DNA of 64,000 nucleotides from an uncultured Bacteroidia bacterium (GTDB taxonomy: Bacteria > Bacteroidota > Bacteroidia > Bacteroidales > UBA932): positions 85,995-149,994 of the forward strand of contig CACZHP010000008.1 in the NCBI GenBank assembly GCA_902780935.1. The letters are read 5' to 3'. Made by a program: the position numbers and the translations under genes. The notes under the pieces were generated by a model. It was not told the DNA's origin and searched no databases. It was given only the letters and a program-made list of their open reading frames with translations. This document shows positions 17,779-61,968 of this stretch, one piece after another. Positions within the stretch are counted from its first letter, which is position 1. Each line of letters begins with the position of its first letter.

Positions 17779-19707
17779 ATGTCGCCGGCTGATGTGCTGA
17801 AGGATTATTGGGGGTACGATAGTTTCCGCCCAATGCAGGAGGAGATTATCTCGGCCGCCCTGGAGGGGAAGGATGTGCTGGCGATCCTGCCCACGGGCGG
17901 TGGGAAGTCCGTCTGTTTCCAGGTGCCGGGAATCATGGCGGAGGGCCTGACCATTGTGGTGACCCCGCTGATCGCCCTGATGAAGGACCAGGTCCAGAAC
18001 CTGGAGAAGAGGGGAGTGAGGGCTCTGGCAATCCATGCCGGGATGTCCCGTCATGAGGTGGATCTGGCTCTTAACAACGCCGCTTACGGGGATTACAAGT
18101 TCCTGTACCTTTCCCCTGAACGTCTGGGGACCCGCCTTTTCCAGTCTTATCTTGACATACTGAATGTCAGCTACATAGTAGTCGATGAGGCGCATTGCAT
18201 CTCACAGTGGGGATATGATTTCAGGCCGGACTATCTAAAGATAGGTGACCTGCGAGAGAGAATTGACGCTCCGGTGATAGCCTTGACCGCGACTGCTACC
18301 CCCACCGTGGCTGACGACATCATGGACAAACTGGGTTTCCGGGAGAAGCTCCTCCTGAAGAGCGGTTTCGAGAGACCGAACCTGAGTTATATCGTGCGGC
18401 ATGTGGAGGACAAGAACTCGCAGATCCTGAATATCTGCCGGGGTGTCCCTGGCAGTGGGATAGTCTATGCCCGCAACAGGGCAAAGTGCGAGGAGCTTGC
18501 AGCCATGCTCAAGGCCGAGGGGATCAGTGCGGAGTTCTATCACGCCGGTCTCGGATCCCACGCCCGGAGCGAGCGTCAGGAGGCCTGGAAGGCCGGCAGG
18601 ACACAGGTTATGGTCTGTACAAACGCTTTCGGAATGGGCATCGACAAGCCGGATGTGCGGTTCGTGGCTCATTATGACCTTCCGGATAGTCCGGAGGCGT
18701 ATTTCCAGGAGGCCGGAAGGGCAGGCAGGGACGGGAAGCGCTCTTATGCCTTGCTTCTTTGGAACGGGATCGACACCCGCCGCCTTTCCCAGATCGGAAA
18801 TGTCTCTTTCCCTTCCCTTGAATACATAGGGAACATATACCAGAAGCTTCACGCTTTCTTTGAGATTCCTTACGATGCCGGGATCGGCCGCCAGTTGAAG
18901 TTCTCACTGGAGGACTTTTGCAAGGCGTTCGGGTTCCAGCGCGCTCCGGTGTTCCATTCCCTGAAATATCTCGAGCGTTCCGGGCACCTGACGTATTCGG
19001 AAGAGGTGGACATCCCGACGAAGGTCAGGATCTCCGCTGACCGGAAGTCGTTGTATGACATTGACTTGCCCAGTCAGGAGATGGCTTCTCTGCTGGACTT
19101 GCTGATGCGGACATATCCGGGAATATTCTCTTTCCTCCAGACTCTTGACGAGGATTATCTGGCCGGCCGTCTCGGAACCACCGTGCCAGGGCTGCGACAG
19201 CTATTATATTCGCTCTCCCTTGAACATGTCATCTCTTATGTGCCGGCTGCTCATTCGGATGTGGTGTTTCTGCACCATGACAGGTTGAGGCCGGGGAATG
19301 TGGATCTCATGCCGGAGCGCTACAAGATGCTCAGGGATAATTTCCGTTCCCGGTCGGAGGCGATGCTTGAATATGCGTCCGAGACATCCGAGTGCCGCTC
19401 CCGCTACCTCCTGCGCTACTTCGGCCAGACCGACACCACCGACTGCGGCACTTGCGACATTTGTCGTGGCAGACAGGCTCTGGCAGTCCAGACTCCTCGC
19501 TTCGCTCGGCCCCTCCCATCTCTTGGAGAGTGCGTGAAAACAAGTTTTCCCTCCCTCTCCTGCGATATGGGCCCCTCCCTCTTGCGTGACAGACCTGTCT
19601 GCCACGTCAGCCAGTATTTCCGATTCGTCCGGTGCGGCCAGTCTGGCAGGCTCAACCCATGCCACCCTCGGCATTGTAAGAGGGGGGACCGGAGCGGAAC
19701 GAAGTGA
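17779..19707 (+). CDS. recQ: ATP-dependent DNA helicase RecQ, 3' end altered by repeat insertion
   Basis: Superfamily 2 helicase. Walker A is LPTGGGKSVCFQ, the DEAH box is VVDEAHCISQWGYDFRPDY, and motif VI reads QEAGRAGRDGK. The RQC zinc site ends at CGTCDICRGR near residue 562. From codon 563 the frame runs into palindromic repeat DNA (family P1) and then P2, ending at TGA 19705-19707 after about 80 unrelated residues. The natural winged-helix tail lies further on in another frame (19538-19999). The helicase core and zinc module are intact, so a shortened protein could still work; alternatively a single-base indel in the repeats interrupts an otherwise open fusion. Confidence 0.85.
   Translation: MSPADVLKDYWGYDSFRPMQEEIISAALEGKDVLAILPTGGGKSVCFQVPGIMAEGLTIVVTPLIALMKDQVQNLEKRGVRALAIHAGMSRHEVDLALNNAAYGDYKFLYLSPERLGTRLFQSYLDILNVSYIVVDEAHCISQWGYDFRPDYLKIGDLRERIDAPVIALTATATPTVADDIMDKLGFREKLLLKSGFERPNLSYIVRHVEDKNSQILNICRGVPGSGIVYARNRAKCEELAAMLKAEGISAEFYHAGLGSHARSERQEAWKAGRTQVMVCTNAFGMGIDKPDVRFVAHYDLPDSPEAYFQEAGRAGRDGKRSYALLLWNGIDTRRLSQIGNVSFPSLEYIGNIYQKLHAFFEIPYDAGIGRQLKFSLEDFCKAFGFQRAPVFHSLKYLERSGHLTYSEEVDIPTKVRISADRKSLYDIDLPSQEMASLLDLLMRTYPGIFSFLQTLDEDYLAGRLGTTVPGLRQLLYSLSLEHVISYVPAAHSDVVFLHHDRLRPGNVDLMPERYKMLRDNFRSRSEAMLEYASETSECRSRYLLRYFGQTDTTDCGTCDICRGRQALAVQTPRFARPLPSLGECVKTSFPSLSCDMGPSLLRDRPVCHVSQYFRFVRCGQSGRLNPCHPRHCKRGDRSGTK
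19467..19604 (+). repeat. palindromic element P1, copy A (inside recQ)
   Basis: 138 bp bounded by perfect 11-bp inverted arms, TGGCAGACAGG (19467-19477) and CCTGTCTGCCA (19594-19604). The interior carries the P1 core: CCCTCCCATCTCT, GGAGAGT, the central palindrome GAAAACAAGTTTTC at 19536-19549 and GGGCCCCTCCCTCTTGCG. Related copies lie at 29297-29447 and 47551-47724. It is read in the same frame as in mtaB (LPSLGECVKTSF here, LPSLGESVKTSF there). Confidence 0.9.
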
Positions 19708-19999
19708 AGCGAGCGGTGGGGCCGAGCGTAGCGAGGCGGTTGAGCCGCCAGAGCTGGCAGCACCGGTAGCACCGGTCATAGCTTCTGTCGCCGAAGTTCC
19801 AAATCCTATAGAGCCGCCAGAGCTGGCAGCATCGGTTGAGGAGGCGATTGTGCGGTTCATCGAGGGAAAAGGGGGAGCGTATAGGGTTGCGGATGTGGTG
19901 GCGGAGTTCGGGAATCCGGCGAAGGGTTATCCTCAGGACTATCTAGAGGTGCTGCGGCACCTGATTGACGACGGGGTGGTTCCACCACCTGGCGGCTAA
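19538..19999 (+). pseudogene. recQ: frameshifted 3' part of recQ (C-terminal winged-helix region)
   Basis: Frame 2 is open from 19538 to TAA 19997-19999. It reads through the P2 palindrome as ALA/GLU-rich sequence and then gives a sensible RecQ tail from about 19832 (VEEAIVRFIEGKGG, YRVADVVAEFGNPAKGYP, DYLEVLRHLIDDG). It lacks its own start and is offset by one base from the helicase frame. One indel between 19538 and 19705 would rejoin the two. The tail retains good protein-like composition, suggesting the shift is recent, programmed or an assembly error. Confidence 0.7.
19629..19766 (+). repeat. palindromic element P2, copy A (inside recQ)
   Basis: 138 bp with 13-bp arms, CCGGTGCGGCCAG (19629-19641) and CTGGCAGCACCGG (19754-19766), 12 of 13 complementary. 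The interior (ACCCATGCCACCCTCGGCA, then TGTAAGAGGGGGGACCGG, then AAGCGAGCGGTGGGGCCGAG) is nearly identical to 47732-47873. The right end, GAGCCGCCAGAGCTGGCAGC, is repeated 69 bp downstream (19742 and 19811), a spacing divisible by three. Confidence 0.88.
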
Positions 20000-20066
20000 A
20001 GGGCTGATTATGAATTAATAAGATATAAATTAAGTGCCGGAAGGCCGTACTTAGAAATAAGCTAAT

Positions 20067-27246: not shown

Positions 27247-28350
27247 CTATTCTATGACAAGCCCGTCGTAGGCCGGGCGGACAATCGAGTGGATGTGCTG
27301 TTCCGAGCACATGCGCTCGAGTTCCTTGTCGAATACTTCGTGGACAGGGAAGGAATGTGAGAGGTGGGTGAGCCAGGTATGTTCGGCGCGGATGCGGTCG
27401 GCGAGGTCGAGGGTTTCCTGGAGACTGAAGTGGGAATGATGTCTGTTGTAGCCTACCGTGTTGAGGGTCAGGTGTTTCAGCCCTTCCAGTTTGGCGAATT
27501 CACTTTCCGGGAGCGTGCTCATGTCGGTAATATACGCTATGTCCCCGAACCGGAATCCCAGCACCGGCAATTTATCATGCAGTCCCCGTATCGGAATAAT
27601 CGTCACCTCTGTCGCTGACGGCTCAGCTGTTTCGAATCTGTCGTCAGGCTCTGACAGACCTGACGACAGCTCGCCATCGTTTGCTGCAGGCGGCAATGCG
27701 CCTGGGCGGACATTTTCCCGGATAGGGCGCGAAGCGCAGGGAGCCCAGGCGCCTTTTGCCGACTGCAGTGACACATCGGCAGCTACCGCTTTCGGGGCTT
27801 CGTCGATCATATCGTCAAGCGAGCGGGCTGTGGGGATGAGGCTGCCGTCGGGGAGGCGGTAGTGGTAACCGATGTCGTGGACCCAGACGAGTTCCTTGTC
27901 GGCGGTGTCTTTCCGGAGTATGAACGGACGCTCGTCGATGACGTGCAGCATCCATTCGGGAGCTCCGGGATATTTCGGGAACTTGAAGACATAGGGATAT
28001 TCCCGGATAAGGTCCTCGAGGACATTCCTCTCGCAGTAAATCTCTGCGGCGCGGCGGTCCACATAATTCAGCGAGCGCACATCATCGAGCCCTCCCGTGT
28101 GGTCCTTGTGGTTGTGGGTCAGCAGGATAGCATCGAGATGGCTAATCCCGAGCCGGAGCATCTGCATCCGGAAGTCGGGACCCGCGTCCACGAGAATACT
28201 CAGTCCTTCATATTCAACGAATGCCGATGCCCTGAACCTCTTGTCACGCTCGTCTTTCGAGCGGCACACCTCGCACTTGCATCCGATAATCGGTACTCCC
28301 TGGGAAGTTCCGGTCCCGAGAAATGTCAGCCTTGCCCTGCCACCTGTCAT
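27247..28350 (-). CDS. MBL-fold metallohydrolase (PhnP-like) with a repeat-derived insert
   Basis: A 367-residue metallo-beta-lactamase-fold phosphodiesterase-like protein. GTGTSQGVPIIGCKCEVC is the family start, and LLTHNHKDHTGGLDD carries the metal ligands. DIAYITDMSTL and LTHLSHSFPVHE complete the metal site. Residues about 175-245 are extra, splitting the usual short link before TIIPIRGLHDKLPVLGFRFG. About 195-238 of these are encoded by two palindromes (27638-27669 and 27684-27768). The frame is intact and the flanking fold conserved, so the protein is probably active with a surface loop. It is last in the operon, overlapping mtaB by 4 bases. Confidence 0.87.
   Translation of the reverse strand: MTGGRARLTFLGTGTSQGVPIIGCKCEVCRSKDERDKRFRASAFVEYEGLSILVDAGPDFRMQMLRLGISHLDAILLTHNHKDHTGGLDDVRSLNYVDRRAAEIYCERNVLEDLIREYPYVFKFPKYPGAPEWMLHVIDERPFILRKDTADKELVWVHDIGYHYRLPDGSLIPTARSLDDMIDEAPKAVAADVSLQSAKGAWAPCASRPIRENVRPGALPPAANDGELSSGLSEPDDRFETAEPSATEVTIIPIRGLHDKLPVLGFRFGDIAYITDMSTLPESEFAKLEGLKHLTLNTVGYNRHHSHFSLQETLDLADRIRAEHTWLTHLSHSFPVHEVFDKELERMCSEQHIHSIVRPAYDGLVIE
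27638..27669 (-). repeat. small hairpin resembling the ends of P1 without a core
   Basis: Perfect 11-bp arms, CTGTCGTCAGG (27638-27648) and CCTGACGACAG (27659-27669), around the 10-base loop CTCTGACAGA. P1 copies A and C share the same arm-interior junctions (CAGG then CTCTG on the left, GA then CCTG on the right), so this looks like a P1 element lacking the interior. Confidence 0.75.
27684..27768 (-). repeat. 85-bp palindrome inside the MBL gene
   Basis: Arms of about 26 bp: CTGCAGGCGGCAATGCGCC.. on the left against ..GGCGCCTTTTGCCGACTGCAG on the right, complementary except for a few positions, with an inner GCGCGAAGCGC segment. It is unlike the other families in the window. It starts 14 bases after the small hairpin, so the insert is two modules in a row. 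Confidence 0.85.
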
Positions 28351-29810
28351 AGGATAATATCTTCTATCGTGTTGACTTTCAATGGATCGTACGGCCTCTC
28401 GATCCTGATGTAATTGCCTGAATATCCGCCCATCATCCCGTCTTTGACGTCAGACTCCCAAAGAACTTGCGAAAGGCGTCCCTTGTTCTTCTTGATAAAG
28501 TCCTCGTGCAGCTCCTCGCAGAGGCTCTCGAGCCTGGCCACCCTCTGAGTCTTGACAGAGTCCCTGACTTGGTCCTTCCAACCTGCCGCCACGGTACCTG
28601 GCCTTCTGGAGTAGGGGAACACATGGATGAACGCTGGTTTAATGCGGTCCTTGAGGAATGAATATGTCTTCTCAAACAGCTCGTCAGTCTCTCCGGGAAG
28701 TCCGGCGATCACGTCTATCCCGAAGAAGACGTACGGCTTGAGGTTGCCCTGGGGCTCTCCTGGCCTGGGATCCATCACGGAGCGGATGTAGTCAATCCTG
28801 TCGGCGAAGAAATCCGTCGAGTAGCGCCTCCTGACCCTTTGGAGGATCTCGTCGGCCCCGGACTGTAGGGGAATGTGGAAATGGGGCTGGAACTTCGTCC
28901 CGGAGGCGATCCAGTCCACAATCTCTTCTGTGATAAGGTTTGGCTCAATCGACGAAATCCTGTATCGCTCAATTCCTTCCACGTCGTTGAGGCGCTTCAG
29001 CAGCTCGAGGAAACTCTCGCCGGTTGTCCTCCCGAAGTCACCGGTGTTGACTCCTGTGATGACTATCTCCTTGACTCCGGTTGAGGCGATTGCCTTCGCC
29101 TGGGCGATGGCGTCGGCGATGGGAATGTTGCGGGACAGGCCGCGGGCGTAGGGGACGGTGCAGTAGGCGCAGAAGTTGTCGCAGCCGTCCTGCACCTTCA
29201 GGAACGACCGCGTCCGCTCCTCGGAGGAGTACGCCTCCAGGATCGGCGCTTGTAGTCGAGGGAGGTCATTGTCCCCGGAAGTTTCTGTTGGTTGATCCGA
29301 GGGGTATAGTCCCCCCGCCGGGCCTGGCCGCCCGTGGCCAGGTGAGCGGGAGGGGCCCAGATCGCCGGAGGGGAAGGGAAAACTTGTTTTCACTGACTCT
29401 CCAAGAGATGGGAGGGATTTACCCGCCGGGGAGACTATACCCTCCGGAACTCCCTCTGACATGGGAAAAACATCCAGCAGGGACAGCGTGTCGGGGACGA
29501 TGCGGGTCTTGTCGGTGGCGCCGAATACAAGCGCCACACCCTCAATAGCTTCCAACTCCTCCCGACGCAGCTGCGCATAGCAGCCCGTCACCACGATCCT
29601 CGCCTCAGGCGACACCCGATGGACCTTGCGGATCACATTGCGGCACTTCTTCTCGGCCCGCTCTGTCACCGAGCAAGTGTTGACCAGATACACGTCCGCC
29701 TTATCCTCCCACTGGACGACCTCAAGACCAGCCGCCACGAAACCCCGCTCGTAAGTGGAAGTCTCAGCGTAATTGAGCTTGCAACCAAGTGTGAGGAAGG
29801 CTATTTTCAT
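28347..29810 (-). CDS. mtaB: tRNA (N6-threonylcarbamoyladenosine37-C2)-methylthiotransferase MtaB with repeat insert
   Basis: A 487-residue radical-SAM methylthiotransferase that converts t6A37 to ms2t6A37. The UPF0004 cluster cysteines lie in TLGCKLNYAE, NTCSVTERAEKKC and VTGCYAQLRREE. The radical-SAM motif is DGCDNFCAYCTVP, followed by GVNTGDFG and HIPLQSGADEILQRVRR. It is about 50 residues longer than usual; the extra residues 122-172 are encoded by P1 copy B at 29297-29447. The insert lies in the linker between the N-terminal domain and the radical-SAM barrel, a place likely to tolerate it. It overlaps the MBL gene by 4 bases. Confidence 0.93.
   Translation of the reverse strand: MKIAFLTLGCKLNYAETSTYERGFVAAGLEVVQWEDKADVYLVNTCSVTERAEKKCRNVIRKVHRVSPEARIVVTGCYAQLRREELEAIEGVALVFGATDKTRIVPDTLSLLDVFPMSEGVPEGIVSPAGKSLPSLGESVKTSFPFPSGDLGPSRSPGHGRPGPAGGLYPSDQPTETSGDNDLPRLQAPILEAYSSEERTRSFLKVQDGCDNFCAYCTVPYARGLSRNIPIADAIAQAKAIASTGVKEIVITGVNTGDFGRTTGESFLELLKRLNDVEGIERYRISSIEPNLITEEIVDWIASGTKFQPHFHIPLQSGADEILQRVRRRYSTDFFADRIDYIRSVMDPRPGEPQGNLKPYVFFGIDVIAGLPGETDELFEKTYSFLKDRIKPAFIHVFPYSRRPGTVAAGWKDQVRDSVKTQRVARLESLCEELHEDFIKKNKGRLSQVLWESDVKDGMMGGYSGNYIRIERPYDPLKVNTIEDIIL
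29297..29447 (-). repeat. palindromic element P1, copy B (inside mtaB)
   Basis: 151 bp. The left arm, GGGTATAGTC plus CCCCCGCCGGG (29302-29322), pairs with the right arm CCCGCCGGGGAGACTATACCC (29422-29442) at 19 of 21 positions; pairing continues imperfectly to both ends. The core palindrome GAAAACTTGTTTTC is at 29378-29391. The arms differ entirely from copies A and C, whereas the core matches them. It is read as GKSLPSLGESVKTSFPFPSG in MtaB. Confidence 0.9.
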
Positions 29811-39416: not shown

Positions 39417-40421
39417 TCAGAGTATTTTTTCCAGCCAGTGGAAGATGAGGAATATCCTTTTCTTGAATATAGAATAGTTGAGACTCAGCGCGTTATCCTC
39501 AACCTTATTGGTCTTCATGGTGATCCCGGAGGTGAAGACCACGCAGTCGGCTCCGGCCCTGGAGAAGACCCCCTGGTCGCCGATCTTCGAGAGGAACATC
39601 TCGGTGAATCCCTCGCTGCCGTAGTAGTCGAAGCCAAGGTCCATGTGGAGACCGTCGGTGTCGTTGGCCCGGATGAGCTCATACTTGTGACGGCCGTCGC
39701 TGAGCATTATGAGGTAGTCCTTCCGGCCCCTGTGAAGAGGGGAGAGGGAGCTCCCGAGGATGTCCAGCACCACCGCGCAATGGATTTTGGAGGGGGTGAT
39801 CGTCTCCCCGCTGACAGGATCCTTCAGCCTGCCCTCCTGGACATCGCTCCAGAAAGCCTCGGCCCCCTGGGAGTTCCTTTCACGGGCGTCGAAGGCCACG
39901 AATATCAGGTTCTTCCCGTATGAGCGCCCCAATTCTTTCATCCTTGCGAACATGTCGGCGAAGCTGACCATCGCCACCACACCGGAGGCGTTGCTGTCAG
40001 CTCCTGGATAGACCGTACCGGCGATTATCCCATGGCTGTCGTAATGGGCAGTCACAAGGACATAGGACTCTTGCAGCCCGGCTCTTTTTCCCGGCATGAA
40101 ACCTATTATGTTGTGGCCGGCCTTGTCACCGACTCCGAAGGACCTGCTCCATTTCCCGCCCATCTTCATCAGCCCGGCTTTCCGGAACCGCCTCGCTACC
40201 CAGAACGCGGCCTCATTGGCCCCGGAAGACCCCGTCGCCCTTCCCTGGAAGAGAGTGTCGCAGAGGAACTCGACTTCGCGTTGGAGTTTCTCGACCGAGA
40301 TTATCCTCTCGGCGTTCTTCCCGGAGGGAATCATTTTGGGGGATGAAGACTGCGCCTGGAGGGTCCCACAGGCGACTGTAAGGAATATGTATATGAAAAA
40401 AAGACGCGATTTCGTTTTCAA
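39417..40421 (-). CDS. exported M28-family metallopeptidase
   Basis: A 334-residue exported aminopeptidase-like protein. The zinc-site segments are LVTAHYDSHG, YPGADSNASGVVAMV, FVAFDARERNSQGAEAFW and VVLDILGSSLSPLH. The usual EE of the third motif is RE, and no clear final zinc-ligand His is found near FTSGITMKTNKVED, so activity is uncertain. No ATG fits; TTG 40421 gives a compact signal peptide (KTKSRLFFIYIFLTVACGTLQAQ), while TTG 40454 would add 11 residues that overlap the divergent promoter. First gene of the M28-ABC-CBM9-VanZ-amidase operon. Confidence 0.8.
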   Translation of the reverse strand: MKTKSRLFFIYIFLTVACGTLQAQSSSPKMIPSGKNAERIISVEKLQREVEFLCDTLFQGRATGSSGANEAAFWVARRFRKAGLMKMGGKWSRSFGVGDKAGHNIIGFMPGKRAGLQESYVLVTAHYDSHGIIAGTVYPGADSNASGVVAMVSFADMFARMKELGRSYGKNLIFVAFDARERNSQGAEAFWSDVQEGRLKDPVSGETITPSKIHCAVVLDILGSSLSPLHRGRKDYLIMLSDGRHKYELIRANDTDGLHMDLGFDYYGSEGFTEMFLSKIGDQGVFSRAGADCVVFTSGITMKTNKVEDNALSLNYSIFKKRIFLIFHWLEKIL

Positions 40422-43436: not shown

Positions 43437-44045
43437 ATGAGACTTAACAGATTGGTGGCGGCGGTGGCCGCTATGGCTATGGCCGCGACAATGTGCGCCC
43501 AGAGCATCTATGACATCAAGGTCAAAGACATGGACGGGAAAGAGGTGTCCATGTCAGAGTACAAGGGAAAAGTCCTGCTGATAGTCAACACTGCGACGAA
43601 ATGCGGCTTCACCCCCCAGTACGAGGAACTCCAGGAAATCTACGACAAGTTCAAGGACAAGGGCTTCGTGATTCTCGACTTCCCTTGCAACCAGTTCGGT
43701 GAGCAGGCCCCCGGCGACATCGCCTCGATTCATCAGTTCTGCACCGAAAAGTATTCCACGACCTTTCCCCAGTTCGACAAGATCGATGTAAACGGTGAGA
43801 ACGAGAGCCCTCTGTTCGCCTTCCTGAAGTCAAAGCAAGCCTTCAAGGGCTTCGGCAACGGCCAGCAGGCCAAGTTCATGGACGAGATGCTCAAGAAGAA
43901 GGATCCGGACTATGCGTCCAAACCCGACATCAAATGGAACTTCACCAAGTTCCTCGTCGATGCCAACGGCAACGTGGTCGCCCGCTTCGAGCCCACCGTC
44001 AGCATGAACCTGGTCAGCACGATGGTCAGCTCAAAGCTTTACTAG
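43437..44045 (+). CDS. exported glutathione peroxidase family protein
   Basis: A 202-residue thiol peroxidase with a signal peptide (RLNRLVAAVAAMAMAATMCA). The peroxidatic Cys is in NTATKCGFTPQYEEL; ILDFPCNQFGEQAPG supplies the Gln and a probable resolving Cys; DIKWNFTKFLVD supplies the Trp/Asn. It is a Cys (not Sec) enzyme and so likely reduces peroxides with thioredoxin-like donors. ATG 43437 is the start that leaves a proper signal peptide. It converges on the M64 gene with overlapping stop codons. Confidence 0.93.
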   Translation: MRLNRLVAAVAAMAMAATMCAQSIYDIKVKDMDGKEVSMSEYKGKVLLIVNTATKCGFTPQYEELQEIYDKFKDKGFVILDFPCNQFGEQAPGDIASIHQFCTEKYSTTFPQFDKIDVNGENESPLFAFLKSKQAFKGFGNGQQAKFMDEMLKKKDPDYASKPDIKWNFTKFLVDANGNVVARFEPTVSMNLVSTMVSSKLY

Positions 44046-45370
44046 TCAGCTATTTCCTTGGTATAGAAATCCACCATCCACCTGATCGCCTCCCGGCAGA
44101 CAGGACAGAAAGAAGGATAGGTGTTGGTCAGCATCCGGCAGTCCGGGAAACCTCTCCAGACACCTTTGCTCTGATAGCCGCCGCCCTCGTAGAGGTCGAC
44201 GGCTGTCTTTTTGCCGACAGTCTTCTTTCCTCTCCAGTCGATGGTGGTGTCGTCCGCCTTGAACTTCTTCCCCACGAGATGGCGCCACTTGGAGTCGAAA
44301 TCCTTCATTGTCGTGATATTCCGCTCCCAGGGCTCGACATCGGGGTAGTAATATTCCTCATACTGGTCGTCGTAGTAATACTCGTCGGCCAGTCCGGCAA
44401 AGCTATGCCCGAACTCATGGACCACCACCGGACGGAAACCGGAGTGGTGGGCGGTGGTGAGGGTGTAAGAATTGTATATTCCTCCGCCACCGTAAGTGTC
44501 TGTGTTGGCGAGGATTATAAGATGCTCGTAGGGGATTCCGGCAAGCAGGTCGTGGAGCTGGAAAAGGTGGAGGGTCGTCAGGTAGCGCTCGGTGTAGAAA
44601 GAGTCGAAATTGGATCCCACGGCGGTCTCCTTCCATAGTCCTTCCCTCGGTACGCTGACACCGCTGTCTTTCGACGGGGCCTTGACGCAGACCAGGTTGA
44701 AGCGGTCTTTCAACTCATTGTAAGGAGCGTGGGCCCAGAGGCTCTCCATGGCCTCGCGGGCGTCCGCCATGAACCTGTCCATCTCCGCCTCAGTGTAACC
44801 CTCGGCAACGATCGCCACGTCGATCCGCTCGTCGCATTTAGGATCGGCGGAAAGGTCGTCGCCTCCCTTCCAGATCCACTCGTGGGGAGCCGGATTCATC
44901 CCGACCGGCCTGATGAGGATGTCTTTGGGATCCACCTCATGGGTGAACTCGCAGCTGACATGGCCGTCCCTGAAGTCGAATAGCTGGACAGTGATTTCAG
45001 CTTTCTCCGCCGGCATGGGGGCGAGGAAGACGTTCTCGAAGGCCTTGCTGACCTTTGTGGCCTCTTCTGTGGGCTGCCACTCCTGGAAGAGGGTAGAGAA
45101 GGAGGTGCGGTAAACTACCTCGCCGCCGACCTTCATTATCAACTGGCCGTTGCCCCTGACGGGTACCTTGTCCATGTTGACCCTCTTTCCGGCCCAGCCT
45201 TCGACCGAGCATAGCTCGGCGAGGGTGATGGACTGGGTCTTGGCGTTGCCGCTGAAAATATAGTTGAGGCGCAGGGTGCGGGAGAAGTCCAGAGACTCTT
45301 CGCTTCGCTCAGAATGACAGGGGATTGTGAGGGTGGCGAGGGCGATCGCCAGTGTGAGGAACCTTTTCAT
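44042..45370 (-). CDS. M64-family metallopeptidase (IgA peptidase-like) with repeat at the signal-peptide junction
   Basis: A 442-residue exported zinc peptidase of the M64 clan. VVVHEFGHSFAGLADEYYYDD is the HExxH...D/E zinc motif, and IDVAIVAEGYTEAEMDRF and HLIILANTDTYGGGGIYNS are characteristic of the family. A C-terminal YPSFCPVCREAIRWM follows. After the hydrophobic signal segment (LTLAIALATLTIP) come the residues CHSERSEES, encoded by a P5 repeat at 45294-45320, right where signal peptidase would cut. Cleavage after the insert would leave the mature protein unchanged. It is the last gene of the dnaN-side minus-strand run. Confidence 0.88.
   Translation of the reverse strand: MKRFLTLAIALATLTIPCHSERSEESLDFSRTLRLNYIFSGNAKTQSITLAELCSVEGWAGKRVNMDKVPVRGNGQLIMKVGGEVVYRTSFSTLFQEWQPTEEATKVSKAFENVFLAPMPAEKAEITVQLFDFRDGHVSCEFTHEVDPKDILIRPVGMNPAPHEWIWKGGDDLSADPKCDERIDVAIVAEGYTEAEMDRFMADAREAMESLWAHAPYNELKDRFNLVCVKAPSKDSGVSVPREGLWKETAVGSNFDSFYTERYLTTLHLFQLHDLLAGIPYEHLIILANTDTYGGGGIYNSYTLTTAHHSGFRPVVVHEFGHSFAGLADEYYYDDQYEEYYYPDVEPWERNITTMKDFDSKWRHLVGKKFKADDTTIDWRGKKTVGKKTAVDLYEGGGYQSKGVWRGFPDCRMLTNTYPSFCPVCREAIRWMVDFYTKEIAD
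45294..45320 (-). repeat. P5 repeat (SERSEES type) in the M64 gene
   Basis: GACTCTTCGCTTCGCTCAG followed by AATGACAG, matching the P5 consensus seen at 59848, 60394 and 61920. It encodes HSERSEES on the minus strand. Confidence 0.8.
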
Positions 45371-46636: not shown

Positions 46637-48277
46637 TTAATTTATTTGTCTGTAATATAGCGTCTCGTCGGCTTCACCTTGGTTGTCCGGGTGGAGGATG
46701 GTCGCGAGGTCCTGGAGGACGAGGTCGGGGCGGGCGACGCCGCTTTGCCAGATGTCGTTGCCGCCTTTGGGATTAACCCTTTTGTTGTCGTTCCAGACCA
46801 CGGTGAAGCTGCCGTAGCCGAGTTCCAGGGCGTTGCCCTCGATGTTTCCGAGCATGTCCTTGAATATCGGGTTGACTCCCAGGAGGTCTTCCCGGCTGTG
46901 ACACCAGCCCACGTTGAGCCAGCAGTCGGCTTCTTTGCTCAGGGAATATGCTTTCTCGACGGACATCACGCTCGAAGCCGATTTCCCGCTCTCGCTGCCA
47001 AGCACGATGCCTCCGGCGTCGCTGATCATGGCCGAAAGGTAGTTGTCTGTCGAGGGGACGAACCATTGGTCGTTGTAGGGAATGTTGAGCAGGACTTTCC
47101 TGGGCGGAACGTGTTGGTTCGCGATATCTTTGGCGATCGCGTTGTAGTTTTCCTTGACGGCATTTAGCGCTGAGTCGGCGGCTGCCATCTGGCCGGTCAG
47201 GGCTCCGAAGAGGCGGATGTAGGCGGCTCGGGCCAGCGGGTGGCGCTCGAGGTGCTCGTTGACCGTAAATACCTTTATTCCAAGTTGTTCCAGCTTCGCC
47301 TCAAACGGCGACTTCGCTCCCGACACCGCATACGTCAGCACCACCTCCGGCCTCAGCCCCACGATCTTCTCATAGTCCGGCGCACCATCGTACCCGACGT
47401 CGGCTATCGCCGACGTCGGCTGACGCCTGTCTACCCCCCTGCGCCCCCTAGGGGGACTGAGGGGCGTTCCCCTCAGACTCCCTGAGTCGCTTCGCTCCGA
47501 GTCACCAGCGGCAACTGTCGGAGCCAGCTCTGAAGTCTCGACCGGAGATTGCGATCTGGCGGCAGGCTCTGACAGTCCGGACTCCTCGCTTCGCGAGGCC
47601 CCTCCCATCTCTCGGAGAGTCTGTGAAAACAAGTTTTCACCGCCTCTCCTTCGATCTGGGCCCCTCCCTCTTGCGTGACGAGGGCGTCCACGGTCCGGAC
47701 TTGCCAGACCTGCCGCCAGATCGCTAGCTAGGGCCGCCGAGACCAGTCTGGATGGCGAGACCCATGCCACCCTCGGCACTGTAAGAGGGGGGACCGGAGC
47801 GGAGCGGAGCGAAGCGAGCGGTGGGGCCGAGCGGAGCGAGGCGGTCGAGCCGCCAGAGCTGGTCTCGGAGGCCGCTAAGCCTGCTGAAGCTGCCAGAGCC
47901 TGCCTACTGCCGAAGAGGGCGGTCGAGCATCCAGGACTGGTCTCGGCGGCTGCCAGGCCCTCGTCACGCCAAAGATAATCGGGACCGGAGATGCCGACGA
48001 TGCGGTCGGTGGCGTCGAGGGCATCGAGGAATCCGTAGTGGGAAGTGCTCATGACGATGAGACGGCTAAGGGGACGGTCGATGATGAGGGAGTCCCTTGA
48101 GCCGTCAAAAGGGGAGACGGACACCGCTTTCCATCCCCCATCAGGTCTCTCAAATATCTCCAGGAAAGCCGGCTCCCCGGCATCCCCCGCCGCCTCGGCA
48201 ACACGTCTCCCGCCGCAGGAACACACCAAGGCCCCAAGCGCGGCAAACAGTAAGACGAAGCGGTGTAATATATTCAT
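46637..48277 (-). CDS. ABC-type substrate-binding lipoprotein with about 180 repeat-encoded residues
   Basis: A 546-residue lipoprotein (LGALVCSCGGRR lipobox) of the BtuF/FecB class. Residues about 30-106 give the first lobe (RLIVMSTSHYGFLDALDATD, IVGISGPDYLWRDE). The fold resumes at IADVGYDGAPDYEKIVGLRP near 286, continuing with EVVLTYAVSGAKSP and a second lobe to the C-terminus. The roughly 180 residues in between are encoded by consecutive palindromes of families P2, P1 and P4 (47394-47960) and are Ala/Ser/Arg-rich. Without them the protein would be about 366 residues, the family norm. The frame is intact throughout. No permease or ATPase gene is adjacent; ligand (cobalamin, haem or siderophore) unknown. 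Confidence 0.85.
   Translation of the reverse strand: MNILHRFVLLFAALGALVCSCGGRRVAEAAGDAGEPAFLEIFERPDGGWKAVSVSPFDGSRDSLIIDRPLSRLIVMSTSHYGFLDALDATDRIVGISGPDYLWRDEGLAAAETSPGCSTALFGSRQALAASAGLAASETSSGGSTASLRSAPPLASLRSAPVPPLTVPRVAWVSPSRLVSAALASDLAAGLASPDRGRPRHARGRGPDRRRGGENLFSQTLREMGGASRSEESGLSEPAARSQSPVETSELAPTVAAGDSERSDSGSLRGTPLSPPRGRRGVDRRQPTSAIADVGYDGAPDYEKIVGLRPEVVLTYAVSGAKSPFEAKLEQLGIKVFTVNEHLERHPLARAAYIRLFGALTGQMAAADSALNAVKENYNAIAKDIANQHVPPRKVLLNIPYNDQWFVPSTDNYLSAMISDAGGIVLGSESGKSASSVMSVEKAYSLSKEADCWLNVGWCHSREDLLGVNPIFKDMLGNIEGNALELGYGSFTVVWNDNKRVNPKGGNDIWQSGVARPDLVLQDLATILHPDNQGEADETLYYRQIN
47394..47500 (-). repeat. P4 palindromes in the binding-protein gene
   Basis: A cluster of short perfect palindromes: CCGACGTCGG at 47394-47403 and again at 47410-47419, CCCCCTAGGGGG at 47444-47455, and a hairpin CTGAGGGG/CCCCTCAG (47457-47464, 47469-47476) with a 4-base loop, followed by a GACTC...GAGTC pair. 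The first CCGACGTCGG belongs to the conserved protein (IADVG), and the second looks like a duplication at the insertion point. Confidence 0.7.
47551..47724 (-). repeat. palindromic element P1, copy C (inside the binding-protein gene)
   Basis: 174 bp with perfect 16-bp arms, GCGATCTGGCGGCAGG (47551-47566) and CCTGCCGCCAGATCGC (47709-47724). Pairing continues inward through TCTGACAGTCCGGAC to about 30 bp. The core palindrome is GTGAAAACAAGTTTTCAC at 47623-47640, enclosed by GGAGAG/CTCTCC. The gene reads it in the opposite direction to recQ and mtaB (GGENLFSQTLREMGG). Confidence 0.92.
47732..47873 (-). repeat. palindromic element P2, copy C (inside the binding-protein gene)
   Basis: 142 bp with 15-bp arms, GGCCGCCGAGACCAG (47732-47746) and CTGGTCTCGGAGGCC (47859-47873), one mismatch. 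The interior is nearly identical to the recQ copy at 19629-19766, and it follows P1 in the same order and orientation as there. Its right end recurs in degenerate form 78 bp downstream (47847 and 47925), again a multiple of three. Confidence 0.9.
47874..47960 (-). repeat. degenerate duplicate of the P2 right end
   Basis: GGTCGAGCATCCAGGACTGG followed by TCTCGGCGGC repeats, with changes, the end of the preceding P2 element (GGTCGAGCCGCCAGAGCTGG followed by TCTCGGAGGC). A comparable duplicated tail exists in recQ at 19811. This marks the upstream limit of the insert in the gene. Confidence 0.6.
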
Positions 48278-56477: not shown

Positions 56478-56508
56478 CGCGGGTGTGTCGCGATTAAGAA
56501 AAAAGTCT

Positions 56509-56516: not shown

Positions 56517-56524
56517 CACCCGAA

Positions 56525-56902: not shown

Positions 56903-56916
56903 TCTTTTTTGAGTTC

Positions 56917-56997
56917 TTAACGTCCTTAACGTCCTTTACGTCCTTTACGTACCGTACGTCCCTCACGTTCTTTACGTCCTTTACGTCCTTTACGTCC
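56917..56997. repeat. 9-bp tandem repeat, nine units
   Basis: Nine consecutive 9-base units around TTTACGTCC (variants TTAACGTCC, TTTACGTAC, CGTACGTCC, CTCACGTTC). The period is a multiple of three and the minus strand would read Asp-Val-Lys repeats, but no convincing start codon or gene contains it. It begins 15 bases after the small acidic gene. Confidence 0.85.
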
Positions 56998-57016
56998 CGT
57001 GCCCGATTTCTCCGTA

Positions 57017-57144: not shown

Positions 57145-57216
57145 GCGTTGCGCTGTTTAGTCCGCTTCCGTCTTCCTCCGCCTCCTTCTCCGCCTCTCTG
57201 AACCGCCCCACCCTTC

Positions 57217-57326
57217 GCCTTCTTCTCCGTCTTCTCCGTCTTCTCCTCCGCCTTCTCCTCCGCCTTCTCCTCCGCCTTCTCCTCCGCCTTCTCCTCCGCC
57301 TTCTCCTCGCCTTCTCCTCGCCTCTC
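57217..57326. repeat. 12-bp low-complexity tandem repeat
   Basis: At least five exact copies of TTCTCCTCCGCC (57241-57300), with degenerate pyrimidine-rich units on both sides. The minus strand would read Glu-Lys-Ala-Glu repeats. It is a strand-asymmetric pyrimidine tract with no gene-like start. Confidence 0.85.
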
Positions 57327-57380
57327 TAAACCGCCCCACCCATCGCCACGCCTTTTGTGTATTCGCACCGCCGTTCATGT

Positions 57381-57654
57381 GCGCCATGTGTCCGGTTCTG
57401 AGGGACATGTGGGGCATATACGCCGTTGAATCGCGCCATGTGTCCGGATTTGAGGGACATGTGGGGCATATACGGCGTTGAAGTGCGCCATGTGTCCGTG
57501 GCTGAGGGACATGTGGGGCATTTAGGGCATTGAAGCGCGCCATGTGTCCGTGGCTGAGGGACATGTGGGGCGATGTGTCCGGGTTTGAGGGACAGATGGG
57601 GCATATAGGGCGTTGAAGCGCGCCATGTGTCCGGGGCTGAAGGACATGTGGGGC
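57381..57654 (+). repeat. left REP-hairpin array (6 units)
   Basis: Six direct copies of a hairpin unit, GCGCCATGTGTCCG then a 6-7 base variable loop then GAGGGACATGTGGGGC, spaced by about 52 bp except a shortened fifth unit. CATGT/ACATG and TCC/GGG pair around one bulged G. The spacer ends in GGCGTTGAAG. The array stops 63 bases before the transposase promoter. Confidence 0.88.
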
Positions 57655-57717
57655 AGAATAGTTAGAATGAGCAGGATGTACAATCGGGAGAGAATGTATA
57701 TGAAGAGCATGAATGCA

Positions 57718-57747
57718 TTGAGCGATGGACGAAATTATGTATATTTG
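57718..57747 (+). promoter_or_regulatory. promoter of the RAYT gene
   Basis: TTG (57718-57720), a 19-base spacer and TATATTTG (57740-57747) form a canonical host-type promoter with a leader of about 16 bases to ATG 57769. The transposase therefore appears to be expressed from a Bacteroidota promoter. Confidence 0.65.
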
Positions 57748-57768
57748 TATAAATAAACTTTAATATTT

Positions 57769-58677
57769 ATGGAAAACTTCGATTTAGAATCTGTCCAAGC
57801 TCAGGACTCGCCACTTGAATTCTGGCTTGTATCCACCGACCACACTACCGACCGGATCTGGTTTAAAGATGACCAGGACTTCAAGGTCGGCATGAATTAC
57901 GTTGCCATAATCGCTATTCTTTCAGGAATTAATGTGCTGGCGTTTATACTCATGTCCAATCATATCCACCTTGTGCTTCAATGTTCGCATGAAGAGGCGG
58001 AGTGGTTCATCGATGAGTTCAAAAGGAGATATTCCGAATACTTGACCAAACGGTATGGGAAGAAGGAGTACCTTCGGGGGATAGATGATGACGTTCGCCC
58101 TCTATACTTGAGTGGAGAGTCTGTTGAGAAAGGCATTGCCTATGTCCTCATGAATAGTGTTGCGGCGAATATATGCCTTTCCGCCACAGGCTACCCTTGG
58201 GGAAGCGCCGGAGCTTATTTCAGAGTGACGGAAACTCGAGGGATCAGGGTTGGAGATATCTCGGTTCGCAAACGCTATAAGATTCTTCATAGCAGAGAGG
58301 AACTGCCTGAGGATGTGATGATTGGGGAGGACGGTTATATTATTCCCCAATCTTTTGTGTCAATTAAATTTGTTGAATCGATATTCAGGACCCCTAAACG
58401 CCTGAATTACTTTCTGTTAAACTCATCTAAGGCAAAAAGGATGAGGGAATTACAAGGTTCTGGTATGCTGATGTTTCGGGATCAGACCATCTTAGCTTCC
58501 CTGCCCGACATGTGCAGGACGCTATTCCATAAGGAGGCGCTATCTTCATTGACGGGTGATGAAATGGAAAGGCTTATTTCTGAAGTGAAATATCGGTTCA
58601 ATGCGGATGTTCCCCAAATTGCGAGAATCCTTGGCTTAGGGTACACGGAGGTTGTGAATATCCTTGAAAAATATTGA
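57769..58677 (+). CDS. REP-associated tyrosine transposase (RAYT / TnpA-REP, Y1 HUH superfamily)
   Basis: A 302-residue protein. The HUH motif is MSNHIHLVLQ near residues 63-72, followed by the helix EWFIDEFKRRYSEYLTKRYG, whose tyrosines are candidates for the catalytic Tyr. The C-terminal part adds VPQIARILGLGYTEVVNIL, a helix-turn-helix-like tail typical of longer RAYTs. The gene is visibly more AT-rich than its neighbours. It is flanked in direct orientation by arrays of a bulged hairpin (57381-57654 and 58702-59418), the arrangement expected of a RAYT with its REP/BIME substrates. RAYTs are usually single-copy and do not move themselves; they cut and may spread REP sequences. Confidence 0.9.
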   Translation: MENFDLESVQAQDSPLEFWLVSTDHTTDRIWFKDDQDFKVGMNYVAIIAILSGINVLAFILMSNHIHLVLQCSHEEAEWFIDEFKRRYSEYLTKRYGKKEYLRGIDDDVRPLYLSGESVEKGIAYVLMNSVAANICLSATGYPWGSAGAYFRVTETRGIRVGDISVRKRYKILHSREELPEDVMIGEDGYIIPQSFVSIKFVESIFRTPKRLNYFLLNSSKAKRMRELQGSGMLMFRDQTILASLPDMCRTLFHKEALSSLTGDEMERLISEVKYRFNADVPQIARILGLGYTEVVNILEKY

Positions 58678-58701
58678 TAAGTGCCAGTGCCATAATGTAT
58701 T

Positions 58702-59418
58702 GCGCCATTTGTCCGGGACTGAGGGACATGTGGGGCATGTAGGGAGTTGAAGTGCGTTGAGGTGCGCCATGTGTCCGGATTTGAGGGACATGTGGGGCAT
58801 TCTGGGCGTTGAGGTGCGCCATGTGTCCGGGGCAGAGGGACATGTGGGGCATAAGGGCGTTGAGGCGCGCCATGTGTCCGTGGCTGAGGGACATGTGGGG
58901 CGTGTAGGGAGTTGAAGGGCGTTGAGGTGCGCCATGTGTCCGGGTTTGAGGGACATGTGGGGCATATAGGGCTTTGAAGTGCGCCATGTGTCTGTGGCTG
59001 AGGGACATGTGGGGCATAAAGGGAGTTGAAGTGCGTTGAAGTGCGCCATGTGTCGGGGTCTGAGGGATATGTGGGGCATAAAGGGCGTTGAAGCGCGCCA
59101 TGTGTCCGGTGCTGAGGGACATGTGGGGCATAAAGGGAGTTGAAGTGCGTTGAGGTGCGCCATGTGTCCGGTGCTGAGGGACATGTGGGGCATAAAGGGA
59201 GTTGAAGTGCGTTGAGGTGCGCCATTTGTCCGGGACTGAGGGACATGTGGGGCATTCTGGGCGTTGAAGGGCGTTGAAGCGCACCATGTGTCCGGTTCTG
59301 AGGGACATGTTGGGCATGTAGGGCGTTGAGGTGCGCCATGTGTCCGGGTTTGAGGGACATGTGGGGAATATAAGGTGTTGAAGCGCGCCATGTGTCCGGG
59401 GCTGAGGGACATGTGGGG
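58702..59418 (+). repeat. right REP-hairpin array (13 units)
   Basis: Thirteen direct copies of the same hairpin unit, beginning 24 bases after the transposase stop. Repeat lengths are 52 or 62 bp; the longer ones contain one additional ten-base GTGCGTTGAA-type block. Arm changes are rare (for example CCATTTGTCC in units 1 and 10) while the loop varies (GGTGCT, GGATTT, GTGGCT and others). All three minus-strand frames happen to be open through much of the array, creating spurious long ORFs. Confidence 0.92.
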
Positions 59419-59457
59419 TGCTGGGGAAGAGGTTCGATGAAGGCTGGGTAGATTTCG

Positions 59458-59490: not shown

Positions 59491-59563
59491 GTAACAATTC
59501 GGAAAAGTATTCGTTTATTTAGTGGAGAGCGGAAGTGATGGCGAGCTGCAAATGGCTGCCGGG

Positions 59564-59640
59564 GTTGCGCCAAGTGGCGTGAGGTGGCGTGAGGTTGCGC
59601 CAAGTTACGTGAGATTGCTCCAAGTGGCGTGAGGTTGCGA
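59564..59640. repeat. 20-bp degenerate tandem repeat
   Basis: About four degenerate units of GTTGCGCCAAGTGGCGTGAG (for example ATTGCTCCAAGTGGCGTGAG), ending 38 bases before the sigma factor start. With the 11-bp repeat this fills the leader region of the sigma gene; I see no standard promoter box here. Confidence 0.65.
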
Positions 59641-59677
59641 AAGGTTGGAAGGTTGCGGGGTTTTGATTGGTAACGAG

Positions 59678-60265
59678 ATGACTAGGGAAGAGTCCATAGA
59701 GTTTTATAAGAGGTATTCACGGAAGTTGTTTAATGTCAGCTTCCGGATTGTCGGGGACCATGCTTTGGCGGAGGAGATTATGCAGGACACGGTCTTGAAG
59801 TTCTTCCGGTTTGTCGGGGAGGTGGAGATGGCCGATCGGGTCGGCGGAGATTCTTCGCTGGCGCTCGGAATGACAGGAGGGACGCTCAGAATGACAGATG
59901 TGGCGGGCCTGAAGGCTATCGAGGCGTGGTTGGTGAGGACGTGTGTGAGGGGTTCGATCGATGCTTTGAGGCGGCTCAAGAGGGAGCGGGAGTTTCTGGG
60001 GGAGTATGAGACGTGGCAGGAAAGTGCGGCTGAGGCGGGGCAAGAAAGCTCGAGCGGAGAGAGTGGGCGGATCACAGTGGAGGATGTGAAGAAAGCGATG
60101 GGCGCTCTGCCGTCTCCGTACAGATTAATCCTGACGCTGGTCTTGATAGATGGGCTGGATTATGAGGAGATAAGCGAGATCACTGGGGAGAAGGAAGGTG
60201 CTTTGAGGACGCGTTTCTCAAGGGCAAGGAGGATGCTGGCGGAGAGGCTGAAAGAGGGGCGGTAA
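59678..60265 (+). CDS. ECF-type RNA polymerase sigma factor with repeat insert
   Basis: A 195-residue sigma-70 factor. Region 2 (FYKRYSRKLFNVSFRIVGD, ALAEEIMQDTVLKFFRFVG) and region 4 (ALPSPYRLILTLVLIDGLDYE, EEISEITGEKEGALRTRFSRA) are complete. Between sigma 2.2 and 2.3-2.4, residues about 57-73 (DSSLALGMTGGTLRMTD) come from a P5 repeat; the chain then resumes with AIEAWLVRTCVRGSIDALRR. ATG 59678 was chosen; a TTG at 59645 adds only non-conserved residues. The anti-sigma factor gene follows 16 bases after the stop. Confidence 0.9.
   Translation: MTREESIEFYKRYSRKLFNVSFRIVGDHALAEEIMQDTVLKFFRFVGEVEMADRVGGDSSLALGMTGGTLRMTDVAGLKAIEAWLVRTCVRGSIDALRRLKREREFLGEYETWQESAAEAGQESSSGESGRITVEDVKKAMGALPSPYRLILTLVLIDGLDYEEISEITGEKEGALRTRFSRARRMLAERLKEGR
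59848..59897 (+). repeat. P5 repeat, double form, in the ECF sigma gene
   Basis: GATTCTTCGCTGGCGCTCGG then AATGACAG, followed by a partial second unit GACGCTCAGAATGACAG. The same double arrangement recurs at 61923-61968. Opposite reading direction to the M64 copy. Confidence 0.8.
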
Positions 60266-60281
60266 GGCTGTTAAATTGATT

Positions 60282-60881
60282 ATGGAAATGAATATGAATA
60301 ATTTAGAGGAATACATTAGGTTAAACCGGGAAGCGTTTGATGAGCAGGAAGTTCCGGAAGGGCATCTTTTGCGCTTCGAGGAGCGGCTGGAGACCCTTCG
60401 CTTCGCTCAGGGTGACAGCACTCCGGCGCCGCCACTGGCCACCGGCCGTACTCAGCCGCAGCGAAGCGAGAATGGACGCGGCCGGGGCCAGGTGGCGGGC
60501 CGGAAAAGGCCGTTGATATGGCTTCGCTTCGCTTCAGTGGCTGTGGCAGCGGCAGTGGCGGCGGTTGTCATATTGATGCCCGGGCCGGCCGGGCATGACG
60601 GTAATGTGGCCGGGCATAAGGATTGGTTTGCCGGAGTGGGAAATGACCAGCTCGAGATATGCCAGGCATATTACGGAAAAATGGCGGAATACTATGAGAC
60701 AATCCTGAAGGGGGATTTCGATGGCACGAGGCAGTTCGACCTGGAGGCGATCGCTGGGGAAGGGATCCCATTGGTGGACCAGTTGCCTGATGAAATTGAC
60801 CTGGAGACGAGGGCGGCGGTGCTGAAAGATTATTACGGAGCCCTCCTCGACGGAATGGAAAGATTGAATAAAATATATTAA
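60282..60881 (+). CDS. probable anti-sigma factor, single-pass membrane protein, with repeat insert
   Basis: A 199-residue protein. The cytosolic N-terminus (NNLEEYIRLNREAFDEQEVP, HLLRFEERL) resembles short anti-sigma domains; one membrane helix lies at about 85-105 (FASVAVAAAVAAVVILM). The periplasmic part is helical (YYGKMAEYYETILKGDFD). Residues about 38-74 (LRFAQGDS, PAPPLATGRTQPQRSENGR, GQVAGRK) are repeat-encoded, from P5 followed by P3. The insert extends the linker before the membrane helix. ATG 60282 is preferred to a TTG at 60276. Location directly after the ECF gene supports its role. Confidence 0.78.
   Translation: MEMNMNNLEEYIRLNREAFDEQEVPEGHLLRFEERLETLRFAQGDSTPAPPLATGRTQPQRSENGRGRGQVAGRKRPLIWLRFASVAVAAAVAAVVILMPGPAGHDGNVAGHKDWFAGVGNDQLEICQAYYGKMAEYYETILKGDFDGTRQFDLEAIAGEGIPLVDQLPDEIDLETRAAVLKDYYGALLDGMERLNKIY
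60394..60419 (+). repeat. P5 repeat in the anti-sigma gene
   Basis: CCCTTCGCTTCGCTCAGGGT then GACAGC, the P5 consensus with AGGGT for AGAAT. It is read as LRFAQGDS and directly precedes the P3 element. Confidence 0.75.
60423..60503 (+). repeat. palindromic element P3, copy in the anti-sigma gene
   Basis: 81 bp (27 codons). Arms CCGGCGCCGCCACTGGCC (60423-60440) and GGCCAGGTGGCGGGCCGG (60486-60503). The interior ACCGGCCGTACTCAGCCGC then AGCGAAGCGAGAATGGACGC is identical to the copy at 61840-61920. The outer arm reads CCGGC/GCCGG here and CCGGA/TCCGG there, a compensatory difference. Confidence 0.9.
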
Positions 60882-60894
60882 TAAAGTATTGAAT

Positions 60895-61821: not shown

Positions 61822-61839
61822 TCCGGTCCGCCAACTAGC

Positions 61840-61920
61840 CCGGAGCCGCCACTGGCCACCGGCCGTACTCAGCCGCAGCGAAGCGAGAATGGACGCGGCC
61901 GGGACCAGGTGGCGGTCCGG
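61840..61920 (+). repeat. palindromic element P3, intergenic copy
   Basis: 81 bp, same length as the anti-sigma copy. Arms run from CCGGAGCCGCCACTGG to CCAGGTGGCGGTCCGG. It begins 18 bases after the head GIN stop. An additional GGTCCGCCA just upstream resembles a remnant left arm. A P5 repeat follows with no gap, reversing the P5-P3 order seen in the anti-sigma gene. Confidence 0.88.
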
Positions 61921-61968
61921 AGATTCTTCGCTGCGCTCAGAATGACAGTAGGCGTTCAGAATGACAGC
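61920..61968 (+). repeat. P5 repeat, double form, intergenic
   Basis: GATTCTTCGCTGCGCTCAG then AATGACAG, followed by GCGTTCAGAATGACAG, the same two-unit form as in the ECF sigma gene. It lies 15 bases from the 3' end of the thioesterase-like gene. Confidence 0.8.

Follow-up and report, generated by a model that had tools for sequence, protein, structure and literature searches.

Palindromic repeats inside protein-coding genes have been described in several bacterial groups. Rickettsia palindromic elements (RPE) measure ~105-146 bp, form a long stem-loop and occur between genes as well as, in frame, within numerous conserved protein genes (PMC2229807). The Correia elements of Neisseria exist in a shorter, open-frame form that is intragenic and a longer, stop-containing form that is almost only intergenic (PMC2229807). 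Repetitive extragenic palindromes (REPs), which span 20-40 bp and carry a tag at one end, also occur within housekeeping genes of several species, well beyond Rickettsia, and the CGTC REP families (with a CGTC head, a stem of 8-9 bp and a loop of 4-5 nt) include Bacteroidetes members without a dedicated transposase (PMC3733652). Here we describe palindromic elements, termed P1, P2 and P3, together with further repeats (P4, P5 and P6), in a window of 64,000 nucleotides from contig C8 of an uncultured Bacteroidia bacterium (genome G000, 3.05 Mb) and in a sample of its relatives, whose genomes and loci are numbered G and L.

The original prediction, made from the letters of the window, had counted at least five families of such palindromes. 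The repeated modules proved to be real; however, P1, P2 and P3 belong to one structured superfamily with a conserved three-hairpin core carried by an outer stem 25-30 bp long, while P5 is separate and P4 and P6 are further types. Five independent families were ruled out because P1 and P2 align with each other and a single covariance model (R1) detects the sites of all three forms. The P1 core has the layout ACC-NN-TGCCACCCTCGGCA-NNN-TAAGAGGGNGGG-hairpin B-GGTGGGG-hairpin C-GGT, and the shared structure comprises the outer stem, hairpin A (TGCCACCCTCGGCA), a hairpin B of variable length and hairpin C. Cores span 66-93 nt, with 80, 66 and 76 nt being the commonest lengths, and are flanked by arms of ~25-30 nt on each side. 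The structure was examined in an alignment of 24 of 125 P1 copies, all with distinct arms, and four P2-type copies; because we trimmed them at the core ourselves, their arms are in register by construction, but no letters were adjusted to suit the structure. Among 676 cells, 85.7% were paired compared to 73.0% in shuffled alignments, and the covariation score reached 0.280, whereas shuffled alignments gave 0.107 and no slid control exceeded 0.104. Changes on both sides were found for 16 of 26 pairs, including all nine counted pairs of the outer stem (9/9), in which 79.8% of the cells were paired.

When scanned with strict filters over this genome and related Bacteroidales, R1 found the element widely within the genus: matches were present in 30 of 37 same-genus genomes (own genome included), with 37 places in G000. 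The 24 genomes of other genera gave no match, a comparison with distant genera that was made through the element only. Within the window, R1 found the sites of P1, P2 and P3, with a weak match (E 6e-4) for that in mtaB; a match at 40166-40241 (E 0.16) was taken as chance. The exact P1 signature, which is narrower, occurred 24 times in G000, 15 times in G017, seven times in G033 and in none of 58 other relatives. Named contig stretches with the P1 signature numbered at least 106; all were titled Bacteroidales or Bacteroidia, and many came from rumen, omasum or abomasum. No P1 signature was matched in viral contigs, and nothing was found in the plasmids queried with P1. Rfam gave no hit at gathering level for sequences from five sources, and its two weak matches (E 0.94 and 0.4) fell on the same short stretch. 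At one locus of G000 (L009:1400-1700) the P1 core itself is broken by another C/G-rich module, a nested insertion.

The outer stem is private to each locus yet palindromic. Arms were compared for 125 P1 copies, with identical copies in overlapping loci counted once and six copies without a readable right end, as well as those near a locus end, excluded. For 111 of the 125 copies, the inverted arms reached or exceeded the 99th percentile of a control set of 600 arms paired between different copies (median score 22 versus 3); low scores were seen for L134 and L135 (8 and 4). In comparisons between loci, median core identities and ungapped arm identities were 97% versus 32% for the 66-nt class (23 copies), 91% versus 28% for the 76-nt class (21 copies) and 89% versus 36% for the 80-nt class (73 copies), many of whose members share the inner arm and differ chiefly in the outer part. 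Among inner arm pairs of same-orientation orthologues, 388 were unchanged, and of the 135 changed pairs 74 had changed on both sides and still paired, while 61 were one-sided or broken. The polarity of a one-base arm bulge was not constant (none in 70 copies, left in 38, right in 14; n=122). Unlike miniature inverted-repeat transposable elements (MITEs), the copies share no common terminal inverted repeats, their arms being locus-specific with 28-36% median identity, and unlike in site-specific invertible DNA, the ends of the inverting segment are not conserved, as arms differ between loci. In Correia elements, by comparison, the 24-bp terminal inverted repeat is a family property (PMC2229807).

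Among the loci retrieved, core orientation was followed at 30 orthologous site groups with at least two filled copies, some of whose members perhaps sit at slightly different spots of one gene (L022 and L088 lie ~60 nt apart). Both orientations were present in 18 of the 30 groups, namely in 10 of 18 labelled gene and eight of 12 labelled intergenic; the group L026/L053 is labelled gene, yet L026 precedes a start codon. Orientation labels were consistent in every site group, with no inconsistent edge, which is trivial for groups of two. Median arm identity was 0.71 for opposite pairs, 0.81 for same-orientation pairs and 0.38 between unrelated sites, and 39 of 55 opposite pairs exceeded the 95th percentile of unrelated sites. 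Since the arms of opposite pairs are alike, most of these pairs look like cores inverted inside inherited arms.

Copies were counted as in-gene when they were spanned by a reading frame that runs for 200 codons or longer without a stop, a mechanical test that 75 of the 125 copies passed. An 80-nt core was found in 65 of these 75 copies and in eight of the other 50. The spanned copies used mainly one frame per strand ((+,2) in 41 and (-,0) in 27 cases, together 68 of 75), and the two orientations occurred 44 and 31 times. In-gene copies are therefore mostly of one length class that is readable either way, which we ascribe to selection for open frames. This division between 80-nt and 66/76-nt cores is comparable to the split of the Correia elements. 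Host genes, among them IspH, IspE, AroC, PurH, MetH, KsgA, TrmO and RsmF, were named from their translations, with a library check for the window genes only. Linker lengths, with empty alleles counted, were a multiple of three in 28/28 loci for mtaB, 20/20 for IspH, 17/17 for PurH, 19/19 for TrmO and 16/17 for AroC. Taken over four of these hosts, each followed in as many as 21 related genomes, 72 of 73 rows were multiples of three, and the exception (L389) reflects an alignment that resumes late. In the PurH, IspH, AroC, TrmO and MtaB loops, different species carry differing modules. PurH is the most extreme case: its loop was seen in 17 genomes with P1 facing one way or the other, with P4 or P5, with another C/G-rich module, with short remnants, or almost bare. 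An example of a peptide predicted to run across insert junctions in the MtaB, AroC, PurH and IspH set is ATLGTVRGGTGAER, and the insert peptides ASLRSAPPLAS, ATLGTVRGGTGAERSEASGGAERSE and CHSERSEES recur in unrelated proteins.

Two processes, dispersal and remodelling, seem to be needed for these patterns. Dispersal is indicated by cores that are repeated and that are missing from relatives at many sites. We consider it probable that the elements are non-autonomous, REP- or RPE-like mobile palindromes of one bacterial genus that were later remodelled by replication template switching. Copies would be inserted by some enzyme, and those that break a frame would mostly be purged by selection; template switching between the arms would preserve their complementarity, may carry them further into the host sequence and would invert the core as a spacer. 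In yeast genes, template switching is reported to homogenise arms and invert spacers (PMC8604942), and it has been described to create and maintain hairpins (PMC8794818). Template switching fits both the private palindromic arms and the flips, and homogenised arms around an inverted spacer are indeed seen here across species, as a pattern and not as an event. The template-switch repeats of yeast genes, where they lie within coding sequence, and of ribosomal RNA hairpins share arm homogenisation and spacer inversion with our elements; their inverted spacers are a few bases long and not mobile (PMC8604942, PMC8794818), whereas the spacer of our elements is itself repetitive DNA, 66-93 nt in length. 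Perfect inverted repeats also occur in coding genes of Nematomorpha mitochondria, where they are maintained, gained or lost between species, and the accessible part of that paper mentions no conserved core (PMC6649704). With RPE, the elements share the in-frame palindromic insertion into conserved protein genes and a unit size of ~105-146 bp; they differ in phylum and apparently in sequence. RPE palindromes are reported to lose repeat identity over time (PMC6649704), whereas the arms here stay complementary, and private arms and core flipping do not appear in those portions of the RPE descriptions that were found.

How the private stem arises was approached through empty alleles, in which arms were sought in 33 rows with a mixed outcome, some rows matching neither arm. 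The matches extended into at least one arm in AroC of G066, TrmO of G066 and G081, L102, IspH of G066 and partly PurH; at L102, P5 stands in place of part of a P1 copy. Several of these matches carry element-type letters and resemble deletion footprints. Short palindromic or one-arm remnants were also seen at L358 (TrmO), L318 (IspH) and L177 (MtaB), where relatives are filled, and resemble in-frame deletion footprints. L242 is flanked by CTATAG and CTACAG, and four aligned loci show no general target-site duplication. That the arms were pre-existing terminators was ruled out by clean empty alleles without arms. At the AroC site, G066 reads CCTTTGGT-GGCGACCAAGAG and G000 reads CCTTTGGTCGCC-element-TGGCGACCAAGAG, a pair whose letters suggest that host DNA was copied into an arm. 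We tentatively raise the possibility, which we regard as doubtful, that the stem is gained at landing by inverted copying of adjacent host DNA from a mini inverted repeat, and that the core then flips back and forth, giving one host protein two alternative insert peptides. To our knowledge, an inverted rather than direct target duplication is not known for bacterial mobile elements; if such copying occurred, an inverted target duplication would be the signature of insertion.

Several observations weigh against mobile palindromes remodelled by template switching, including the copying of host DNA into arms. Transposition itself was not seen, the core has no enzyme linked to it, and the spacer inversions reported in yeast involve 2-5 bases compared to 66-93 nt here (PMC8604942). 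The frame test and the gene and intergenic labels are mechanical and error-prone in G+C-rich DNA. Pairing was 72.2% of cells in hairpin B and 79.8% in the outer stem, and the number of pair types was barely higher than in shuffled alignments (32 versus 28.0), with 36 of 500 shuffles reaching 32. Pairs inside one site group are not independent, and the remaining 16 of the 55 opposite pairs may be independent insertions. A host-copied arm is suggested in only four cases (AroC G000/G066, AroC G074/G069, L022/L088 and anti-sigma G000/G066), each of which can also be read as a one-arm remnant, and several empty alleles have neither arm. Gain and loss of a copy are not always distinguishable. A deletion in G066 between short direct repeats could equally give the AroC picture; likewise, the remnants at L358 in TrmO and L318 in IspH look like deletion footprints, and TrmO of G081 (L355) is probably another.

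A simpler account, to which we give roughly one chance in four, is that these are ordinary REPs or REPINs moved in trans by Y1 transposases of the REP-associated tyrosine transposase (RAYT) type, with stems that drift while pairing is kept for mobility and without template switching. The own genome has three Y1_Tnp matches, one of them below cut-off and one next to an element-bearing ksgA gene, and GTAG precedes hairpin A in six of 15 P2-type rows; P1, however, lacks a GTAG tag. A Y1 match was present in 25 of 30 R1-positive and two of seven R1-negative same-genus genomes, a weak association that is confounded by assembly completeness and kinship, but five R1-positive genomes had no Y1 match and 19 of 24 other-genus genomes were Y1-positive without R1. 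The GTAG REP system would lead one to expect a RAYT flanked by its own element; the RAYT of the window is flanked by an unrelated palindromic array, and that of contig C17 follows a ksgA gene containing a P2 copy. Moreover, the unit of P1-P3 is, unlike a REP, a three-hairpin core on a private stem, and near-random stems next to 97% identical cores, together with frequent flips, are not explained by drift alone.

The strong covariation would also agree with a structured RNA, regulatory or terminator-like, that is kept by selection at each site, as a variable closing stem is typical of RNA families, and some intergenic stems have A-runs and T-runs as in terminators (e.g. L047). We judge this improbable, given that both orientations occur in long frames and at 18 of the 30 site groups, that presence and absence differ among relatives and that Rfam yielded nothing at gathering level for the five sources. 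Marginally less probable still is an element that targets hairpins, with cores entering the loops of hairpins already at the locus. A natural small inverted repeat, TTGGT-GGCG-ACCAA, does lie at the AroC site of an empty relative, but among 84 strong palindromes in 842 kb of mostly P1-chosen loci 64 had the P1 hairpin A motif and nine had loops below 20 nt (no strong palindrome occurred in 233 kb of shuffled control), and the clean empty alleles L259 and L264 have no hairpin.

Mobile palindromes remodelled by template switching, our preferred reading, would combine known and new features. In-frame palindromes in genes, from Rickettsia and as intragenic REPs elsewhere, and a length-class split as in Correia elements have been described before (PMC2229807, PMC3733652). 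As far as the literature was searched, the three-hairpin family, seen so far in one genus, its locus-private arms, the flipping of its core at orthologous sites and the reuse of host loops by different modules are new, and no description of such elements in rumen Bacteroidales was found in the result listings searched. Many conserved enzymes (chorismate synthase, PurH, IspH, IspE, MetH, KsgA, MtaB and TrmO, as named from translations) accept foreign peptides of tens of residues, and the same loop filled differently in each species provides a natural experiment on insertion-tolerant protein loops. The hosts are uncultured ruminant bacteria, whose related species allow the survival of proteins with inserted DNA to be followed, and they offer a bacterial system of many sites and many species for measuring template-switch remodelling of long palindromes. 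For annotation pipelines, insert peptides shared by unrelated proteins should not count as homology.

In the window itself, repeat-derived segments were found, as the original prediction had described, in all seven genes named there (recQ, a metallo-beta-lactamase (MBL) hydrolase, mtaB, an M64 peptidase, a binding lipoprotein, an extracytoplasmic function (ECF) sigma factor and its anti-sigma factor) and in one intergenic composite copy (61840-61948). These segments are not confined to the window: the recQ segment gave 41 matches across G000, next to the 24 exact P1 signatures and 74 P5 copies. The prediction's view of RPE-like in-gene palindromes of different sequence, placed at loops, linkers or the signal-peptide junction, is supported by same-genus orthologues without the insert, found for six of the seven genes (mtaB, the lipoprotein, the M64 peptidase, sigma and anti-sigma factors and, by spacing only, the MBL hydrolase), as well as by the predicted disorder around the MtaB insert. 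The frame is kept open except in recQ, the exception already recognised there. The recQ insert (19468-19834) consists of two cloverleaf elements at 19470-19620 (-) and 19634-19761 (+) (R1 E 6e-9 and 4e-38) plus linking sequence. The recQ frame at 17779-19707 stops short of the C-terminal part; the latter lies in a different open frame (19586-19999), and in relative G066 the frame stays open through a like insert (L246).

The mtaB gene (28347-29810, -) carries a cloverleaf element of the P3 form in frame at 29296-29448 (+; R1 match at 29300-29448), located between the UPF0004 and radical SAM domains. The linker measures 237 nt here and 30-171 nt in the 27 loci, out of 29 others, that yielded both flanks. 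In an AlphaFold2 model, both domains are well predicted (329 of 487 residues with a predicted local distance difference test score (pLDDT) of at least 90), whereas residues 126-186 have a pLDDT below 50, so that the linker between the domains, which holds the insert, is predicted to be disordered. The MiaB structure 7mjz could be aligned to both flanks of the insert (query residues 3-109 and 201-453). In the lipoprotein gene (46637-48277, -), a composite insert at 47411-47959 combines R1 elements at 47559-47716 (-) and 47739-47866 (+) (E 3e-16 and 9e-36) with a C/G-rich module near 47436-47504, and a weaker R1 match was seen at 47925-48054 (E 6e-4). Among 13 loci compared, this insert measures 549 nt here and 255 nt in G017, the remaining 11 loci having 12-63 nt. 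The MBL-fold hydrolase gene (27247-28350, -; NCBIfam NF002553 in two stretches with 261 bits, under the cut-off of 386) holds the P6 palindrome at 27668-27784, a strong inverted repeat whose 35-nt tip resembles L063:4695-4774; P6 was thus seen in this gene and in L063. The gene spacing, taken relative to L083, is 86 here and -55 to -133 in six same-genus loci.

P5 is a REP-like repeat resembling the GTAG- or CGTC-tagged type, with 74 copies in the own genome at up to three mismatches versus none for a reversed control pattern. Compared to the CGTC REPs, its head is mostly TGTC, and stem variants include CATTCT/AGAATC and CATCCT/AGGATC. In the M64 peptidase gene (44042-45370, -), P5 (repeat family D15) lies right after the signal peptide at 45287-45320 (-); the segment is present in G066 and absent from G068, G070 and G033, and the CHSE peptide found in G017 is shorter. 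The ECF sigma gene (59645-60265) contains a P5-derived segment of two partial copies at 59849-59898 (+), which is shared with G066 and was not seen in eight other same-genus orthologues examined. The anti-sigma gene (60276-60881) carries P5 at 60385-60418 and P4 at 60423-60504, together 60385-60504 (+; families D15 and D8); G066 lacks both save for the residues GQVAGRKRP, which span the right arm of P4, and G065 has a P5-like peptide, ETLRYAQGD. The intergenic composite (+) consists of P4 at 61840-61921 (D8, 96% to 60423-60504) followed by P5 at 61915-61948 (D15). P4 hence occurs twice in the window, and also in PurH of two relatives. Elsewhere in G000 (L415-L418, C45:6202-6449), four P5 copies share one stop-free frame of 261 codons with repeated CHSERSEES peptides.

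The RAYT-type Y1 transposase gene of the window (57769-58677, +) matched PF01797 with E 3e-4, below cut-off, and NF047646 with 27.9 bits (cut-off 80); it is a candidate mobilising enzyme for some of the palindromes. It is flanked by its own palindromic tandem array at 57305-57660 and 58688-59440, in which 52/62-bp units (57305-59440) each contain a palindrome like CCATGTGTCC..GGGACATGTGG. Short intergenic tandem repeats with units of 9, 12 and 10 bp lie beside it at 56904-57009, 57174-57320 and 59565-59647. On contig C17 of G000 (L170:2227-4437), ksgA with an in-frame P2 element is located directly upstream of a second RAYT-type gene, and in G033 a Y1 match at C8:29719-29982 lies near an element at C8:28083-28210. 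Lastly, small-looped palindromes rich in A+T, which may be MITEs of a different type, were observed at L059:4471-4596, L108:3490-3614 and L108:4704-4808.

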